DNA of 64,000 nucleotides. Origin: Streptomyces sp. TRM49041 (GTDB lineage Bacteria > Actinomycetota > Actinomycetes > Streptomycetales > Streptomycetaceae). The notes below the pieces were generated by a model. It ran no database searches. It saw only the letters and a list, made by a program, of their open reading frames with translations, and was not told where the DNA came from. Where the stretch lies: the NCBI RefSeq assembly GCF_008271805.1, contig NZ_VSRY01000016.1, forward strand, positions 1-64,000. The letters are read 5' to 3'. Positions 14,928 to 23,349 of the stretch are shown piece after piece. Both the position numbers and the translations under genes were made by a program. The stretch's first letter is position 1. Every line of letters begins with the position of its first letter.

Positions 14928-15776
14928 TCAGTCCAGGGATGCCAGCGCGTCCGCTATCAGTGAGCGCGCTACAGCTCCCCGCGCAGCCCCCCGCGAGAGC
15001 CGTTCGAAGGCTCGGGCGTACAGCTGCACCTGGCTGGGCTGTGCAAGTGTGGAAGCGGCGTCCAACGTGTCCGCGTGGACCCTGGTGTCGTCGAAGATCG
15101 TGAAGGTCGGCATGGGCCATACCGTTCGCCGCGATGAGAACGGAATGATCCCCACAGCGACGTTCTGGAGATCCATGATCCCGAGCAGGTGACCGAGCTG
15201 AGCGGCCATGGTCTCGGCGCTGCACAGCCGGTACCGCAACACCGACTCCTCCAGCACGAACGAGAACCGGCGTGCGCCGTTGCTCAGCACTTCGTTGCGC
15301 TTGATGCGGGCCGCCACTGCGTCGCTCACGTCGTCCGGGGCTCCCCGGAAGTCTGCGATGGACGACAGCAGAGCGGCCGCGTATCCGGGCGTCTGGAGGA
15401 ATCCAGGGATCACGTCGGATACGTAGACCCGGAACACCTTTGTTCGTTGGTACAGGTCCCCTGTGGACTCCTGCAAGCGTCGGAGACCGGTCCGCTGCAG
15501 GTGCCTCCACTGCACATGAGCATCGGCGGACTGCCGGTTCGCTGCGATCAGGTCCGGTACGTCGTCATCAGCGGCGCAGGCTCGGCACCATGCCCTGATG
15601 TCCCGGTCGGAGGGAGGCGTCTTGGCGTTCTCGATCCGGGACGACTTCGACTCCGACCAGCCGCATCTGGCGGCCAACTCCCGCCCGGTGATCCCCGCGT
15701 CCTTCCGGATCTCGCGCAGACGGCCGGCGATTTCCTCACGGGACCTCTGAACGCGTGAAGAGGCGTGTAGGGGCAT
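14928..15776 (-). CDS. XRE/HTH_31 transcriptional regulator with DUF5753 domain
   Basis: A 282-aa regulator. The N-terminal helix-turn-helix spans about 12-70 (REIRKDAGITGRELAARCGWSESKSSRIE), and the DUF5753 domain fills the rest (IPGFLQTPGYAAALL is diagnostic). Streptomyces encodes many of these proteins, usually beside a small DUF397 partner. Here the partner position is taken by DUF6879 and an 84-aa protein. The ATG at 15776 lies 14 bp after the DUF6879 stop, so the three minus-strand genes form one operon. Likely targets are the phased GCAAG repeats at 16555-16645. Confidence 0.88.
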   Translation of the reverse strand: MPLHASSRVQRSREEIAGRLREIRKDAGITGRELAARCGWSESKSSRIENAKTPPSDRDIRAWCRACAADDDVPDLIAANRQSADAHVQWRHLQRTGLRRLQESTGDLYQRTKVFRVYVSDVIPGFLQTPGYAAALLSSIADFRGAPDDVSDAVAARIKRNEVLSNGARRFSFVLEESVLRYRLCSAETMAAQLGHLLGIMDLQNVAVGIIPFSSRRTVWPMPTFTIFDDTRVHADTLDAASTLAQPSQVQLYARAFERLSRGAARGAVARSLIADALASLD

Positions 15777-15790
15777 GGAGCCGGCCTTCG

Positions 15791-16306
15791 TCAGATCTTG
15801 TACAGGTGGTGCGGGACCGCCCGCTCCCAGACTGCTTCGAAGGCAGCGGAGCACAGCTGCACGGCCTCCGGGTCGGCCGTTATCTCGTCCTCGACCACCA
15901 CTCCGTCGCCGGAGAAGTGGTGCACCCGGAGCAGCGCGCCGTCGAACAACCAGAAGTCATTTCCGGGCAGGGGGACAACTGTGGCCCGTCGCCGCGGCAG
16001 CCACCGAACCTCTTCGCCCGCCGTGACGTTGGCGTGCGTGACGTAGTGCTCCCATCGGATGTACTCCGAGACGGGCTCGGAAACGACACGGGCGCGGCGG
16101 ATCACCACACCTCGGGCCACCGAGTCCGAAATCAACTGATCGTAGGGATGCCACCAGGAATCCCGGTCCTCCCAGTCGATCCGCTCACCCCGCTTCCATG
16201 CCTCGAACCGGTCCGTCGGAGCATAGGAGTCACGCAGCTCCAGGTGGACGGCAGACCGCTCGCACTGCCGCAGCAGCTCAGCGAAGCTGGGCACGCTCGA
16301 CGGCAT
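15791..16306 (-). CDS. DUF6879 family protein
   Basis: A 171-aa protein of unknown function with the usual DUF6879 hallmarks: FAELLRQCERSAVHLELRD near the N-terminus, RRARVVSEPVSEYIRWEH in the middle and GNDFWLFDGALLRVHHF near the C-terminus. The family commonly sits next to HTH/DUF5753 regulators in Streptomyces. The ATG at 16306 is chosen because AGGGAGG is 6 nt upstream; the GTG at 16309 is adjacent and in frame. Its first 29 bases overlap the preceding 84-aa gene, implying translational coupling. Confidence 0.82.
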   Translation of the reverse strand: MPSSVPSFAELLRQCERSAVHLELRDSYAPTDRFEAWKRGERIDWEDRDSWWHPYDQLISDSVARGVVIRRARVVSEPVSEYIRWEHYVTHANVTAGEEVRWLPRRRATVVPLPGNDFWLFDGALLRVHHFSGDGVVVEDEITADPEAVQLCSAAFEAVWERAVPHHLYKI

Positions 16307-16532
16307 CACAGGCCTCCCTGATCATCGGAATCATCCGGGCCGGAATCCTGACGATGGCTTCGCTGTCGGGCACCGGACCGTTTGCGGGGCTGCTCGCCTC
16401 GCACTCCACCTGAGTCTCGGGGCTCGGCCTCCACCCCTGCAACAAGATCTCTTGGGCTGCCGCGTCCGCCCACACCGTCGGGCAGTGGTCCCGGTCGGTG
16501 TTGGGGTCGATCCCGACGAACTCTACGGCCAT
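16278..16532 (-). CDS. Small acidic protein upstream of DUF6879
   Basis: An 84-aa protein of unknown function. MAVEFVGIDPNTDRDHCPTV is conserved-looking, followed by a WADAAAQEILLQGWRP segment. It resembles small proteins that precede DUF6879/HTH modules in Streptomyces. The ATG at 16532 has GGGAG six bases upstream. It is the first gene of the minus-strand trio and overlaps DUF6879. Confidence 0.7.
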   Translation of the reverse strand: MAVEFVGIDPNTDRDHCPTVWADAAAQEILLQGWRPSPETQVECEASSPANGPVPDSEAIVRIPARMIPMIREACDAVERAQLR

Positions 16533-18540: not shown

Positions 18541-18651
18541 CCGTCCCCGGACGGGCCCGGGTTTGCCCGGCCCGTCGAACTGAAGGTGTCAGCCGACGCC
18601 GTCGATGCAAGGTCCCCCGGGGCAGGCCGACGTTATGAAGGTTGTAGGGCC

Positions 18652-18942
18652 ATGGGAATTCGCCCGGAGCAACATTCGACTGGCCGCCGCCGCGAGCCAT
18701 ACCAGGTGCTGGACCCGTTCGGACGACCGATCGAGCCTGTCGCGACGTACCTCAGAGATCTGATGGCAGCGGACAGTTCGCCGTTGACGCCGCGTTCGTA
18801 CGGGATGGATCTGCTGCGCTGGTGGCGCTACCTGTGGGCATGTGGAATCGAGTGGGACCGCGCGGTTCGTGAAGATGCCCGGGACTTCATGCTCGGCCTG
18901 TTGGGCCGCTTCACTGGCCGCTGGTTCGGCGCACTGCGGTGA
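18652..18942 (+). pseudogene. Tyrosine recombinase N-terminal stub (truncated)
   Basis: A 96-residue frame matching the core-binding domain of large actinobacterial tyrosine recombinases: YQVLDPFGRPIEPVATYLRD, then TPRSYGMDLLRWWRYLWA and REDARDF. It stops before any catalytic residue. Recombinase-like sequence ends near residue 84; the last residues are read through the 3' end of the opposite-strand STAND gene. It is a mobile-element remnant broken at the STAND cassette boundary. Confidence 0.65.
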
Positions 18943-21487
18943 GGGCGGCGCGGATTGCCGTCGTCATAGGGTGCCCCGCTCCCAGCAGCCGTACCGCGTC
19001 GGTGAGGGCACGCTCGTACAGGGGGACTGCGAGGTCCGGGCGCCCCGTCGCCTCGTACGCGGCGGCGAGGTCGAGGCGTACCGCCCCGGTGTCCGGATGG
19101 TCCTCCCCGACACTGCGTACAGTGGCGTCGAGGGTCTGCTCGAGCAGTGGAACGGCCAGGTCCACGCGGCCCCTGCGCGCGTGTGTGGCGGCGAGGTTGT
19201 GGCGCACAGTACGCGTCAGCTCATGGGTGTCCCCCAGGTTGCGCGCCGCGTCGCGAAGGGCCCGCTCGTACACCGGAAGGGCACCGTCGGGGCGGCCCGC
19301 CGCCACGAGCGCGCCTGCGAGGTCATTGCCGGAGCCAACGGTGAGGGGAGAGCCGGCTCCGAGGACACGCTCCCGGTCGGCCAAGGTCTGCTCGTATAGC
19401 GGGATGGCCCGTTCCAGGTCCCCCGCCGCCTCATATGCATCGGCGAGGCCACCACGCGTCGCGAGGGTGTGCGGGTGGTCGGCTCCGAGGAGCCGCTCAC
19501 GGTCGCCGAGGACCCGCTCGTACAGGGGGACGGCGCGGCCGAGGTCACCCACGGCCGCGTAGGCGCCGGCGAGGTTGTTGCGCATGATCAGGGTGTGCAG
19601 GTGGTGCTCGCCGAGGATCCGCACCGCGTCCTCGGCGATCTCGCGGTGCAGCGGAAGGGCGCGCGCGGGGTCTCCCGCCGCCGCGTAGGCGAAGGCCAGG
19701 TTGTTTCGCGCGATCAGGGTGTCCGGGTGGTCCGGGCCAGCGGTGCGGATCCGGTCGTGCAGGGTCTGCTCGTACAGCGGCAGCGCCCTGGCGAGATTCC
19801 CGGCCGTCTGGTGAGCCTGGGCGAGGTTGTTGCGCGTGGACAGGGTATGCGGATGGTCTGTGCCCAGAACCCGCTCCCGGTCCCTGAGGGTGTCCTCCAG
19901 GAGGGAGAGGGCCCGGGCCGCGTCACCTTTGAACTCGTAAGCCCGTGCAAGGTTGTTGCGTACTGTGAGGGTGACGGGATCTGTGTCGCCCAGTTCCCGT
20001 GCGGCGGCGGTGAGGGCGCGTTCGTAGTAGGTGATCGCGCGGCTCGTGTCGCCCTGGTGGGTGAGAAAGAGGCCGGCCTCGTTGAGCACTCTTCCGATGT
20101 CTTCGGAGGTGTCCGTCTCGGGGGGCGAGCGGCCGATGACGGCGTCGATGTGCGGCGTCAGAGCCCGCCAGGCGGGCCAGGCGGCGGGGTCCAGCGATGT
20201 GGCGGGCAGCGCCGCCTGCAGGTGGGCGGCCGCCGCCCGGCGGGCCCGGTCGACGAGGTCCGGCGCGCGGTGGGGGTCACGGAGGTCGGGGGTGCGGGCC
20301 AGGGCCTGCACGAGGGGGTGCACGGCGAGGGTGCCGGTGCCGGGGTCGGCGGTCACCATGCTGTAGGCGGTGAGCAAGCCGAGGGCGCCGGTGGCCTCCG
20401 GGGTGCCCGGCTCCCCGCCGAGGAGGCCGACGGGGATGCGGTCGGGGGCGTACCAGGCCAGGAGACGCAGCAGGTCGGTGGCCAGGGGCTGGGTCCGCCG
20501 GATTCGGTCCAGCGTCAGATTCCAGACACGGGCGACAGTGCGTTCGCTGTCGGCGCCGGGGACGCCGCCGGCCCCGTAGAGGTCCGCCGGGTACCGGGCC
20601 AGGAGGCCGAGGTAGCCACGGGGCGTCAGCAGCGGGGCCTGGGCGAGATAGGCGGCGGCCTGCTCGACGGCAAGGGGCAGGTGACCGAGCTCGGCGCACA
20701 GTTCGGCGGCGCCGTCCATGTCGCGCGGGTCGGCGCCGGCCGTGGCGATACGGGTGAGCAGCGCCAGTGACGCGTTCTCGTCCAGGACGTCCAGGCGGAC
20801 CACGGTGGCTGCGCCGTGCCACACGGTCGCGAGCCTGCTGGTGATCAGGAAGCGGCCGCCGCGGGCCCGGTCGAGCAGCGGGGCGATATCCCGGGGATCA
20901 TTGACGTTGTCCAGCACCAGCAGCCAACCGTCGTGGGTGGCCAGCCACTGCAGGGCGCGCTCGGTCAGGTCGGCGGCGCGCAGCACCTCGGCCAGGGCGG
21001 GTTGCAGCGCGCTGGCCAGGTCGGCGAGGCCCCGCTGGACGGAGGCGGCGCTGTCGGCGGTGATCCAGCGGATGGGTGCGCAGCCCGCCGCGTGGGCGCG
21101 GGTGACCGCCCAGTGGGCGGCCAGGGCGCTCTTGCCGATACCACCGAGCCCGTGCACCGCCTGCACCACCACCTCGCCAGGGTGGGAAAGGACCTTGTCC
21201 AGCCGGTCGAGTTCGGCAGTGCGTCCCACGAAGGCACCCCGCCGGGGGACGTTATCCAGCCCGGGTGGGGCGTCCACATCAGCGGGCGGCAGCAGAGCCT
21301 GGGGTGGCAGCATCAGGGCACGGGCGCCGTCCCCGGTCTGCGCGACCCCGTAGAAGCCGCCGGGCGCCGCGATGGCAATGGAGCGCGGGCCCGACGCGTC
21401 GGCGTGGACAGGAGTAGGCGGACCCTGGGCACGCCGCTGATCACGCGTCGGCCGCTCACGTCGGCGCTTGCGGAACAGAGGCGTCAC
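18911..21487 (-). CDS. STAND NTPase: NB-ARC domain with C-terminal TPR array
   Basis: An 858-aa signal-transduction ATPase. Residues 1-75 lack a known effector domain but carry a tag SIAIAAPGGFYG...TGDGA (36-55). The NB-ARC module has Walker A GLGGIGKS (113-120), Walker B WLLVLDNV (189-196) and the LITSR sensor (214-218). A winged-helix/linker region follows. From about residue 460, nine 42-residue kinesin-light-chain-type TPRs (xPLYExxL) run to the end. Such proteins oligomerise on ligand binding and are common in regulation and phage defence. It overlaps the upstream membrane-protein gene by 4 bp (translational coupling). ATG start at 21487. Confidence 0.88.
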   Translation of the reverse strand: MTPLFRKRRRERPTRDQRRAQGPPTPVHADASGPRSIAIAAPGGFYGVAQTGDGARALMLPPQALLPPADVDAPPGLDNVPRRGAFVGRTAELDRLDKVLSHPGEVVVQAVHGLGGIGKSALAAHWAVTRAHAAGCAPIRWITADSAASVQRGLADLASALQPALAEVLRAADLTERALQWLATHDGWLLVLDNVNDPRDIAPLLDRARGGRFLITSRLATVWHGAATVVRLDVLDENASLALLTRIATAGADPRDMDGAAELCAELGHLPLAVEQAAAYLAQAPLLTPRGYLGLLARYPADLYGAGGVPGADSERTVARVWNLTLDRIRRTQPLATDLLRLLAWYAPDRIPVGLLGGEPGTPEATGALGLLTAYSMVTADPGTGTLAVHPLVQALARTPDLRDPHRAPDLVDRARRAAAAHLQAALPATSLDPAAWPAWRALTPHIDAVIGRSPPETDTSEDIGRVLNEAGLFLTHQGDTSRAITYYERALTAAARELGDTDPVTLTVRNNLARAYEFKGDAARALSLLEDTLRDRERVLGTDHPHTLSTRNNLAQAHQTAGNLARALPLYEQTLHDRIRTAGPDHPDTLIARNNLAFAYAAAGDPARALPLHREIAEDAVRILGEHHLHTLIMRNNLAGAYAAVGDLGRAVPLYERVLGDRERLLGADHPHTLATRGGLADAYEAAGDLERAIPLYEQTLADRERVLGAGSPLTVGSGNDLAGALVAAGRPDGALPVYERALRDAARNLGDTHELTRTVRHNLAATHARRGRVDLAVPLLEQTLDATVRSVGEDHPDTGAVRLDLAAAYEATGRPDLAVPLYERALTDAVRLLGAGHPMTTAIRAALTAVRRTSGQ

Positions 21488-21963
21488 TGCGGTGCCCCGC
21501 CGGAGGTTTCACCGGTGGCGAGGCGGCCGTGGTTGTCGCCAGCGATGGCGATGGACTGGTCACCGGACGCGGTTGCAGTGGCCGCAGACGGCGGAGGGCC
21601 GGAAGGGGGCGGTGTCGGAGGATCCGGAGAGGGCGGCGACAAGAGCCCGGGAGATGCCGCACTGGTGGAGATGTCACCCCTGTTGCAGCCACCGATGGCC
21701 ACCGAGCCCGCTCCCGAGGCGGTCGCCGACGCCTGGTCCGCGCCGGGCCGACCTGTGGCCGGTGGGGTGCCGCAGGTGGCGAACCCGTGACCCCACATGG
21801 CCGCCAGGGCGGACAGAGCCGCCCCCACCCCGCAGGCCACGGCCCACCGCACGGCCGGGTCCGCCATCACGGAGCGCAGCAACGCCCCACAGACCCAGGT
21901 GCCACTGGCGAACGCGGCCACCGTCGCCACGGCCGCGACCGCCCATCTGCCCAACGACCCCAT
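21484..21963 (-). CDS. Two-helix membrane protein with two SxAI...TG tags, STAND partner
   Basis: A 159-aa protein of unknown function. Two membrane helices (about 5-27 and 38-60) are followed by a Pro/Ser-rich tail carrying two copies of a tag: SVAIGGCNRGDISTS (87-101) and SIAIAGDNHGRLATG (137-151). The STAND protein encoded immediately downstream has a third copy at its N-terminus. The stop overlaps the STAND start, so the two proteins are made together. It could be the membrane-bound effector or anchor of a two-component conflict system; that is inference. Confidence 0.75.
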   Translation of the reverse strand: MGSLGRWAVAAVATVAAFASGTWVCGALLRSVMADPAVRWAVACGVGAALSALAAMWGHGFATCGTPPATGRPGADQASATASGAGSVAIGGCNRGDISTSAASPGLLSPPSPDPPTPPPSGPPPSAATATASGDQSIAIAGDNHGRLATGETSGGAPQ

Positions 21964-22366
21964 AAGCCCCCCGCGATCACTCTCGGCTCTTCCACCATGC
22001 CACTAAGGGCCCGAACTCGTACCCCTTTCGATGATGCTTGTCCGGCCAGCCGTTGGGGCGGCGCGGCCAGGCGCAGCAGTCCGTGCCCAGCCCCGCCAGC
22101 AGCCTGTCCGGACAACACAACTAGGACGGCCTCTCTCCCAGTAGTTCGGAGAAGGCATCTGAGGCAAGTACCGACTTCCCGTACGTACCTCACGAGTATT
22201 CGTGGGGTGTAGGCATGTAGGTGCCGGTGAGAACTGTGTCACCGGCACTCCATGTAAGGCGCCCTCCACGCACATCTCCCGCTGGCTACTTGCTTGGCTG
22301 CCAGCAGCGACCCTCAAGACCGCGTTCGAGACCGGAAGCTCTCCGCCCGGACGCCTCGTCAGCGGT
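21964..22366. other. Gap between the STAND cassette and the integrase fragment
   Basis: About 400 bp with no supported gene. It must contain the STAND operon promoter (minus strand), but no clear -35/-10 is visible. A short inverted repeat CACGA-GTAT-TCGTG is at 22191-22204, next to several GTAC motifs. An open frame from 22258 runs into the integrase fragment but looks non-coding before about 22367. Confidence 0.5.
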
Positions 22367-23272
22367 TCTCGTTGTTCTCGGGGATGATGGACTGGGCTGT
22401 GGTCAACGAGATCATCGGTCGGAATCCCTGCAAGAGGGTCAAAGGCGCTGGCAGTCGTGCCAAGGAGATTCTCGAGCACAAGAGCAAGGCTCGACGGCTG
22501 ACGACGCGGGAAGTCCTCGCCATGCTCGGCGCTTCCCCTCCTCGCTACCGCGCGATGCTTTGGCTGATGGCCGGGTGTGGACTGCGGCTCGGTGAGGCCA
22601 TGGCTGTCTCACGCGGCCAGATCGACTTCAAGGGCGAGACGCTTCGGGTGGACTTCCAGATCACCGAGGACGGCGAGACCGAGTCGGGCAAGAACAGCGC
22701 CCTTCAGCGTCGGCACATCAAGGCTCGGGACGAGGAGGAGCCGGGGCGTGTCATCCCCCTGCCGCCCAACGTCGCCTTCGAGCTGCGGCGGCACATCCAG
22801 AATCACGGCGTTTGGGGACCAGAGCGGCTCCTCTTTCCCCACGTGACGCGGACCGGGTTCCTGTACGCGTCGTACTTCTACCCGAAGACTTGGACAATCG
22901 CGCTGGACAAGGGCGGAGTGACCTACTGCAAGGCGCACTCGCTCCGGCACTACTACGGGTCCCGGCTCCTGTACGCCGGGGTCCCCGAGAACGACGTAGC
23001 CGACTGGATGGGCCACAGCAGCACGGACGTGCTCAGGGAGCACTACCACTACATCTTCGAAGGCGCCGAGCAGCGCGGTCGGGGCAGCCATCGCAACCAT
23101 GCTGACTCCCGGCGCGGACGACCCCACAGAGGCGGAGGCGGAGGCGGAGGCGCCAGAAGTCGCCAAGATCCACACACGACACAGCCCCCGGCATCACGCC
23201 GGGGGCTGTGCTGTTTATGCTGGTCAGCAGCCGTTCTCAGGCCCTCAGCTCCCCAGGATTTCCCCAGCATGA
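22367..23272 (+). pseudogene. Phage-type integrase, catalytic half only, with a probable frameshift
   Basis: The C-terminal catalytic domain of a tyrosine integrase. The arm/core-binding domains are missing: homologous-looking sequence begins at SLFSGMMDWAVVNEIIGRNP. Catalytic residues are intact: Arg in AGCGLRLGEA, HSLRHYYGS (HxxR), WMGHSS and Tyr in REHYHYIF. After the catalytic Tyr, coding quality moves to another frame. Removing one G from the G4 run at 23081-23084 restores an Ala-rich, Glu-repeat tail ending at TGA 23270-23272. The uncorrected frame runs to 23331. It is probably a decayed island integrase. Confidence 0.7.
23181..23209. terminator. Strong hairpin inside the integrase tail
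   Basis: A perfect 12-bp stem (23181-23192 with 23198-23209) and a 5-nt loop. It looks like a terminator but lies within the frameshift-corrected integrase C-terminus, which suggests that the tail was appended by recombination or is not translated. Confidence 0.7.
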
Positions 23273-23329
23273 CGCCCGCGAACGGCCTTGATGGGGCCGC
23301 AACGGGCGGAAAGCCGAGTGCGCTCCTGT

Positions 23330-23349
23330 AGAGCCGGGAAACCGGCTCT
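23330..23349. terminator. GAAA-tetraloop hairpin, terminator
   Basis: An 8-bp stem AGAGCCGG/CCGGCTCT closed by a GAAA tetraloop, between the integrase fragment and the convergent acyl-CoA dehydrogenase stop. It could serve either direction. Confidence 0.6.

Follow-up and report, generated by a model that had tools for sequence, protein, structure and literature searches.

What does a two-gene cassette of Streptomyces sp. TRM49041 do, when its products, a 159-residue membrane protein and an 858-residue NTPase of the Nod-like receptor (NLR) type, carry copies of one short sequence tag? The cassette lies in the first 64,000 nucleotides of contig NZ_VSRY01000016.1, the whole stretch analyzed here and hereafter called the window (Table 1). 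The two genes almost certainly work together, and the tag is very probably the contact between the membrane protein, which we call the effector, and the NLR. In the immune pairs of fungi, amyloid tags make proteins clump, and a like role is assumed for related bacterial pairs. We propose, with moderate confidence, that the cassette encodes an amyloid-signaling pair of the bacterial amyloid signaling sequence (BASS) type with a membrane executor other than Bell, likely serving as a cell-suicide switch, for which we infer amyloid formation, membrane damage, and phage defense.

A first-pass annotation of the window had described two genes with a 4-bp overlap, a membrane protein ending in two tags of the form SxAIxGxNxGxxxTG and an NTPase starting with a related one, and had suggested the membrane protein as a possible effector or anchor. 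The open reading frame (ORF) listing places both genes and their overlap exactly as described, on the minus strand, a hidden Markov model (HMM) of the tag finds it on both proteins, and the membrane protein is indeed the likely effector. All three tags are present, but the written pattern is approximate, because the first effector tag ends in TS instead of TG and the NTPase tag holds an insertion of about three residues. In Pfam searches the NTPase matched NB-ARC at 39.8 bits (cut-off 23.5) along with many TPRs, and the effector matched nothing above cut-off. None of the families modeled in PADLOC was matched by either protein.

The cassette recurs as a pair. We searched 295 genomes of the same genus as the window and found the effector family at 11 places in 10 of them at E<=1e-30, which with a locus from Streptomyces paradoxus (L008) gives 12 loci. 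In all 12 the start of the next gene lies inside the stop codon of the effector, so that the two share 4 bp; this partner is a P-loop NLR in nine loci and, in the other three, a 394-residue protein that lacks a P-loop and belongs to the von Willebrand factor A (vWA) family. Eleven of the 12 partners score above 8 bits with the tag HMM, the lowest being that of L008 (8.1) followed by the window's own (9.7), and the partner in L043 falls below 8 bits with a variant tag visible by eye. Counting weak matches and those to the tag only, a profile of four effectors hits 42 of the 295 genomes at E<=1e-3, and a class-wide sample gave matches in 8 of 394 genomes, seven of them (the window's own genome counted) from the window's genus. 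A second related effector family, A3, aligns with the first, A2, at a profile match probability of 99.4 over the tags and second helix, and has matches in 87 of the 295 genomes, tag-only and cross-family matches included. At E<=1e-3 the effector profile matches 143 proteins in the database; among the 120 listed, those with a name are mostly annotated as "hypothetical protein", with exceptions such as "Secreted protein" for P0007 and a membrane-protease regulator name for P0045.

Among 121 effector proteins, counting the window's own and five from the first search, 106 have two tags, 13 have one, and two have none; in 108 of 119, at most 15 residues separate the last tag from the C-terminus. 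A tagged ORF lies downstream of 33 of 50 distinct small tagged ORFs, with its start codon at exactly -4 in 29 cases. The N-terminal regions of 31 partners yielded AAA_16 matches in 24 and NB-ARC matches in 22, and a PADLOC scan of the same regions produced one weak ZorA match. The annotation had held that its reading would fall if the pair were not conserved together or the tag occurred randomly; partnerless copies (17 of 50, weighed below) notwithstanding, the pair is conserved and random occurrence of the tag is unlikely, so that the reading was not refuted.

The tag HMM spans 21 positions and was built from 27 seeds. Of 4,125 six-frame ORFs of the fetched loci it scores 155 above 8 bits and leaves the range from 6 to 8 bits empty, and every residue-shuffled ORF stays below 6 bits; because the seeds come from these same loci, which overlap one another and were chosen by effector homology, the scan demonstrates separation and not prevalence. 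Judged on these scores, a chance origin of the tag class is unlikely. Any match to the tag profile was found in 15 of 41 genomes searched, and in the window's own genome (7.49 Mb) the profile matches, at E<=0.1, only the two tags of the effector. A variant similar to the NLR tag of the window occurs in L040, L043, and L029.

A private homotypic contact predicts that the tags of cognate partners should co-vary, and they do. The mean cognate score between effector and partner tags was 60.0, against 50.1 +/- 1.5 in 20,000 re-pairings (n=32, one a fragmentary tag). With the fragmentary tag dropped and the remaining 31 pairs thinned to 13 with <60% identical partner sequence, the cognate mean was 60.1 against 49.8 +/- 2.6 (p=3e-4). 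Tag distances correlate at r=0.55, at r=0.52 when the partner sequence after the tag is controlled for, and at r=0.46 (partial Mantel, p=0.006) when the effector core is controlled for as well. Cognate tags thus co-vary beyond general relatedness.

To which kind of system does such a pair belong? The first-pass annotation had considered it undescribed, a label that does not hold: published reports, in their available portions, describe BASS amyloid-signaling pairs as an effector combined with an NLR (PMC7889193, PMC8086366, PMC12261475, PMC9815663), and the layout of the window's pair matches theirs (PMC7889193, PMC8086366, PMC12261475). Two findings tie the tag itself to BASS, namely Bell-like effectors paired with tagged NLRs and a BASS3-like slot in the vWA family.

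The first came from the tag profile, which found another kind of effector, about 135 to 150 residues long with the tag at its C-terminus, in L102 (where the effector start is an inferred one), L105, and L106. Each has a tagged P-loop gene alongside; two of these gene pairs overlap by 4 bp, and in the third 2 bp lie between the genes. A search of 296 genomes of the class matched the domain of these proteins (A6) in 11, with a doubtful match at the weak end, and AlphaFold2 models it as an all-helical bundle with a mean predicted local distance difference test (pLDDT) score of 84.8 and a predicted template modeling (pTM) score of 0.77. As far as the available published description goes, Bell is a small helical bundle, which the predicted A6 fold fits. 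Relatives of A6 in L131 and L133 carry other C-terminal motifs, echoed at the N-terminus of the next P-loop gene.

The second finding concerns the 394-residue partner of L008, L044, and L048, which has one N-terminal transmembrane (TM)-like segment by eye. Its database relatives are partly named VWA domain-containing, and two carry PF00092; Pfam gave nothing above cut-off on the partners from L044 and L008. The N-terminal stretch of 63 vWA relatives contains the tag in 8, a BASS3-like motif in 18, both in none, and neither in 37. The BASS3-like pattern was written after the vWA-family sequences had been viewed, and it matches none of 12,600 shuffled vWA-family N-termini. BASS3 itself has published aggregation data, the peptide ORT49035.1 103-123 being described, in the part of the report available, as aggregating and binding Congo red (PMC8086366). 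A search with this peptide hit 12 of 296 genomes at E<=0.5 and led to BASS3-type effectors in L140, L141, L143, and L145. Downstream of the L141 effector begins an NLR-like gene whose product carries the BASS3 motif at its N-terminus, cut after 117 codons by the end of the stretch, and in L145 no following gene with a BASS3 motif was seen in the frames looked at. In L140 and L143 the effector precedes a membrane-type protein of ~230 residues that bears the BASS3 motif at its own N-terminus, so that here, too, the partner is not an NLR. A membrane-type protein also follows weakly Bell-like proteins in L136, L137, and L139, and in L136 and L139 its N-terminus mirrors the tail of the upstream protein.

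An A3-like hairpin with a tag is fused ahead of a vWA-family protein in P0142 (by profile match) and P0147 (by eye), and the leader PLFRKRRR precedes the tag both in the window's NLR and in the vWA-family partner of L044. Inspection by eye shows that most of P0129-P0134 instead join the A3-like TM hairpin to a vWA-family protein through a BASS3-like motif, and hairpin-vWA proteins of this kind amount to natural fusions of both partners. Given these swaps, the tag acts like a plug for NLRs, vWA-family proteins, hairpins, and Bell-like bundles alike, one that a BASS3-like motif can replace.

The AlphaFold2 model of the window's effector, built from 93 sequences (mean pLDDT 74.8, pTM 0.40), shows two long helices and a pair of strands in each tag. 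Its pLDDT is near 80 at the tags and falls off in the linkers, and both helices pass a hydropathy scan. The model is a monomer prediction, not a fibril, and its tag strands are only suggestive of an amyloid-type contact. The A6 bundle, by comparison, has five or more predicted helices, and hhalign comparisons of families A2 and A3 with A6 and with BASS3-bearing domains (A7) gave probabilities of about 0.1 or less, though with alignments as small as these (4-14 rows) a distant kinship might go unnoticed. The hairpin also has no Pfam match at E<=1, so that a HeLo/HELL executor domain was not recognized, in a database that we take to contain HeLo models; its model has only two helices in about 60 residues. 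No effector-associated domain (EAD) family, for which Pfam presumably also has models, is among the matches at E<=1 on either protein.

We lean toward the idea that the hairpin harms the membrane. It might alternatively be a mere anchor that recruits the NLR, which would then be the effector itself; no effector domain was recognized by Pfam on either protein, and recruitment is a role that the tag could fill. Some hairpins, however, have no visible partner, and two effector tags facing one receptor tag would seem to fit templating better. Moreover, because a Bell-like domain replaces the hairpin and a vWA-family protein replaces the NLR elsewhere, the hairpin is not tied to NLRs. We regard the anchor as quite improbable.

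Several observations weigh against the reading of the pair as a BASS-type amyloid switch. Its assignment to BASS, made from the layout and the two findings above, is provisional. Foldseek returned no match for the effector model and no solved relative for the A6 model, each at E<=0.001. The profile match between A6 and domains with the published BASS3 motif is weak (probability 13.7), and since the hydropathy scan picks out no TM helix in L105 either, we call A6 only "Bell-like". The window NLR's own tag was not recovered by the tag profile in its own genome at E<=0.1. In the 97% copy of the cassette (L009) the partner's own tag fits the effector tag worst among 13, though in the reverse direction only two effector tags fit the NLR tag better than its own. 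A tag arginine found in 99% and 95% of the family at the two positions is Gly in R1 and Gln in R2 of the window's effector, which may reflect a private channel or early decay; the 97% copy has the same Gly and Gln, and the NLR tag keeps its Arg. Finally, for 17 of the 50 small tagged ORFs no neighboring ORF scored as a partner. Among them, L060 is cut by a contig end and L013, the same locus as L043, was missed by the threshold, while the 10 kb fetched for each of L050, L056, L057, and L058 hold no partner ORF >250 aa with a tag or a P-loop. These four are double-tagged hairpins, either orphan effectors or ones with partners encoded elsewhere.

A further point against amyloid comes from the tags themselves, which match YadA_head (PF05658) below threshold at 18.5 bits (cut-off 25). 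They could thus form a homotypic contact of another kind, a YadA-like beta-roll rung building a small, defined oligomer of NLR and hairpin, with which the strands predicted at the tags would agree; PF05658 is also precomputed for P0029, P0061, and P0111 among the 120 listed homologues. Yet the tag of vWA-family proteins occupies the slot of a BASS3-like motif, a class with published aggregation data, and one rung per NLR would be short for a YadA-type roll. We consider the beta-roll unlikely, if less so than the anchor, and from the sequences at hand the effector-NLR contact is probably amyloid-like.

If the pair is a BASS-type switch, the TPR array would sense an invader or a damage cue, and the NB-ARC domain, whose P-loop is present, would bind nucleotide and oligomerize as its family is known to do. 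Clustered N-terminal NLR tags could then nucleate a cross-beta stack, each effector tag being modeled as two strands and a turn, and the two C-terminal effector tags would join it with two rungs per molecule, as in HET-S, a step suggested by the architecture and by tag covariation. Crowded TM hairpins might finally breach or depolarize the membrane, so that the infected hyphal compartment would be killed or disabled. Whether phage defense is the main use of such a switch we judge to be evenly balanced.

A quite different role is raised by the NTPase annotation, in which NCBIfam identifies the protein as FxSxx_TPR (NF040586) at 461.9 bits (cut-off 300). The NLR would in that case belong to an FxSxx-COOH peptide-modification system, and a homologous partner in L155 (6525-9266) is annotated fxsT, a label probably transferred from the NF040586 model. 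That model covers the NB-ARC/TPR region, however, and also matches L040 and L046 above cut-off, and FxsB radical SAM genes above cut-off are found only on contigs C91 and C163, the window lying on C3. Because FxsB lies on other contigs, we did not file the pair as an FxSxx-COOH locus, a role that we hold to be very improbable.

The first-pass annotation had placed the cassette between recombinase remnants, and comparison with other genomes supports mobility: a 3.2-kb block is 97% identical in another genome where both flanks are unrelated, so the pair moves as a unit. Partial matches occur on three Streptomyces plasmids, covering 31-40% of the query, and the two that were opened are linear. 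No phage record matches the cassette, and a search for terminal repeats of at least 9 bp around it was negative. The ratio of nonsynonymous to synonymous substitution against the 97% copy is 0.45 for the effector (16 changes) and 0.31 for the NLR (70 changes), which suggests that both genes are maintained as proteins. Of the flanking recombinase-like ORFs, that at the left end (18586..18942) has no NCBIfam match. Adjoining the cassette at 14928-16532 on the minus strand are a helix-turn-helix-like regulator and small ORFs, which we take to resemble typical Streptomyces regulator pairs.

Table 1. Positions of the gene pair, its parts, and adjoining features in the window.
Feature	Position	Strand	Basis
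Effector, 159 aa, predicted two-TM hairpin and two C-terminal tags	21484..21963	-	ORF, ATG start
NLR-type NTPase, 858 aa	18911..21487	-	ORF, GTG start; NB-ARC and TPR by Pfam
GTGA, 4 bp shared by effector stop and NLR start	21484..21487	-	
Predicted TM hairpin, effector residues 3-62	21778..21957	-	AlphaFold2 helices 3-29, 36-62; hydropathy
Tag R1, effector residues 82-101, predicted two-strand arch	21661..21720	-	Tag HMM; strands 79-83, 88-91
Tag R2, effector residues 132-152, predicted two-strand arch	21508..21570	-	Tag HMM; strands 129-133, 138-141
NLR N-terminal tag, residues 31-53, variant with insertion	21329..21397	-	Tag HMM, 9.7 bits
NB-ARC domain, NLR residues 91-283	20639..21217	-	Pfam PF00931; P-loop present
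TPR array, about residues 466-830 of NLR	18998..20092	-	Pfam PF13374/PF13424
Unit at 97% identity with another genome (L039), flanks unrelated	18892..22122	.	
ORF resembling recombinase N-terminal fragment, entered by left end of cassette	18586..18942	+	By eye
Tyrosine-recombinase C-terminal half	22294..23331	+	Best NCBIfam NF040815, 43 bits, cut-off 220

More generally, we hypothesize, giving the idea an even chance, that the tag forms an independent wiring code, an amyloid address of the BASS class common to NLRs, a membrane protein of the vWA family, Bell-like bundles, and a minimal executor that consists of a TM hairpin without a Bell or HeLo fold. Amyloid signaling in Streptomyces would then be a modular bus reaching beyond NLR-to-Bell, with tag variants serving as private channels of co-transferred partners. 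The listings and passages of open-license literature consulted here, a scope outside which the founding BASS paper lies, mention neither a two-TM hairpin nor a vWA partner for BASS motifs; relative to them, a TM-hairpin effector without detectable Bell-like similarity and a vWA-family partner in place of the NLR in 3 of 12 loci are new. If the proposal is correct, a 60-residue TM hairpin would be a simple executor for amyloid-controlled bacterial cell death, and few membrane killers under the control of an amyloid tag might be smaller. Amyloid motifs may act as portable plugs, as suggested by the exchange of executors and partners around one tag and by that of tag and BASS3-like motif within one family. 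The dozens of natural pairs whose tags covary also provide material for learning how cross-talk between short amyloids is avoided.

The pair can be placed among known systems, whose published accounts are drawn on here in their available portions. Like the EADs of STAND conflict systems, the tag is a small common module that couples an NTPase to varied effectors through homotypic contact (PMC7159879, PMC8195603), but it measures about 21 residues and is predicted to be beta. The NLR shares with HELLP/PNT1 the order of N-terminal motif, NB-ARC, and TPR beside the gene for a cell-death executor (PMC7889193), while its motif and executor domain differ from those of that pair, which uses the PP motif. 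The resemblance to HET-S/NWD2 of Podospora anserina lies in two C-terminal pseudo-repeats on a membrane executor and a motif on the partner NLR (PMC7889193); in contrast, no HeLo domain was seen in the window's effector, and the sequences are unrelated. With BASS pairs it shares adjacent or overlapping genes, a motif at the effector C-terminus and the NLR N-terminus, an actinobacterial host, and a tag type also present on Bell-like effectors. It departs from them in an effector that is a predicted two-TM hairpin, usually with two tags and with no detectable Bell-like profile similarity, and in loci where that hairpin is paired not with an NLR but with a vWA-family protein.

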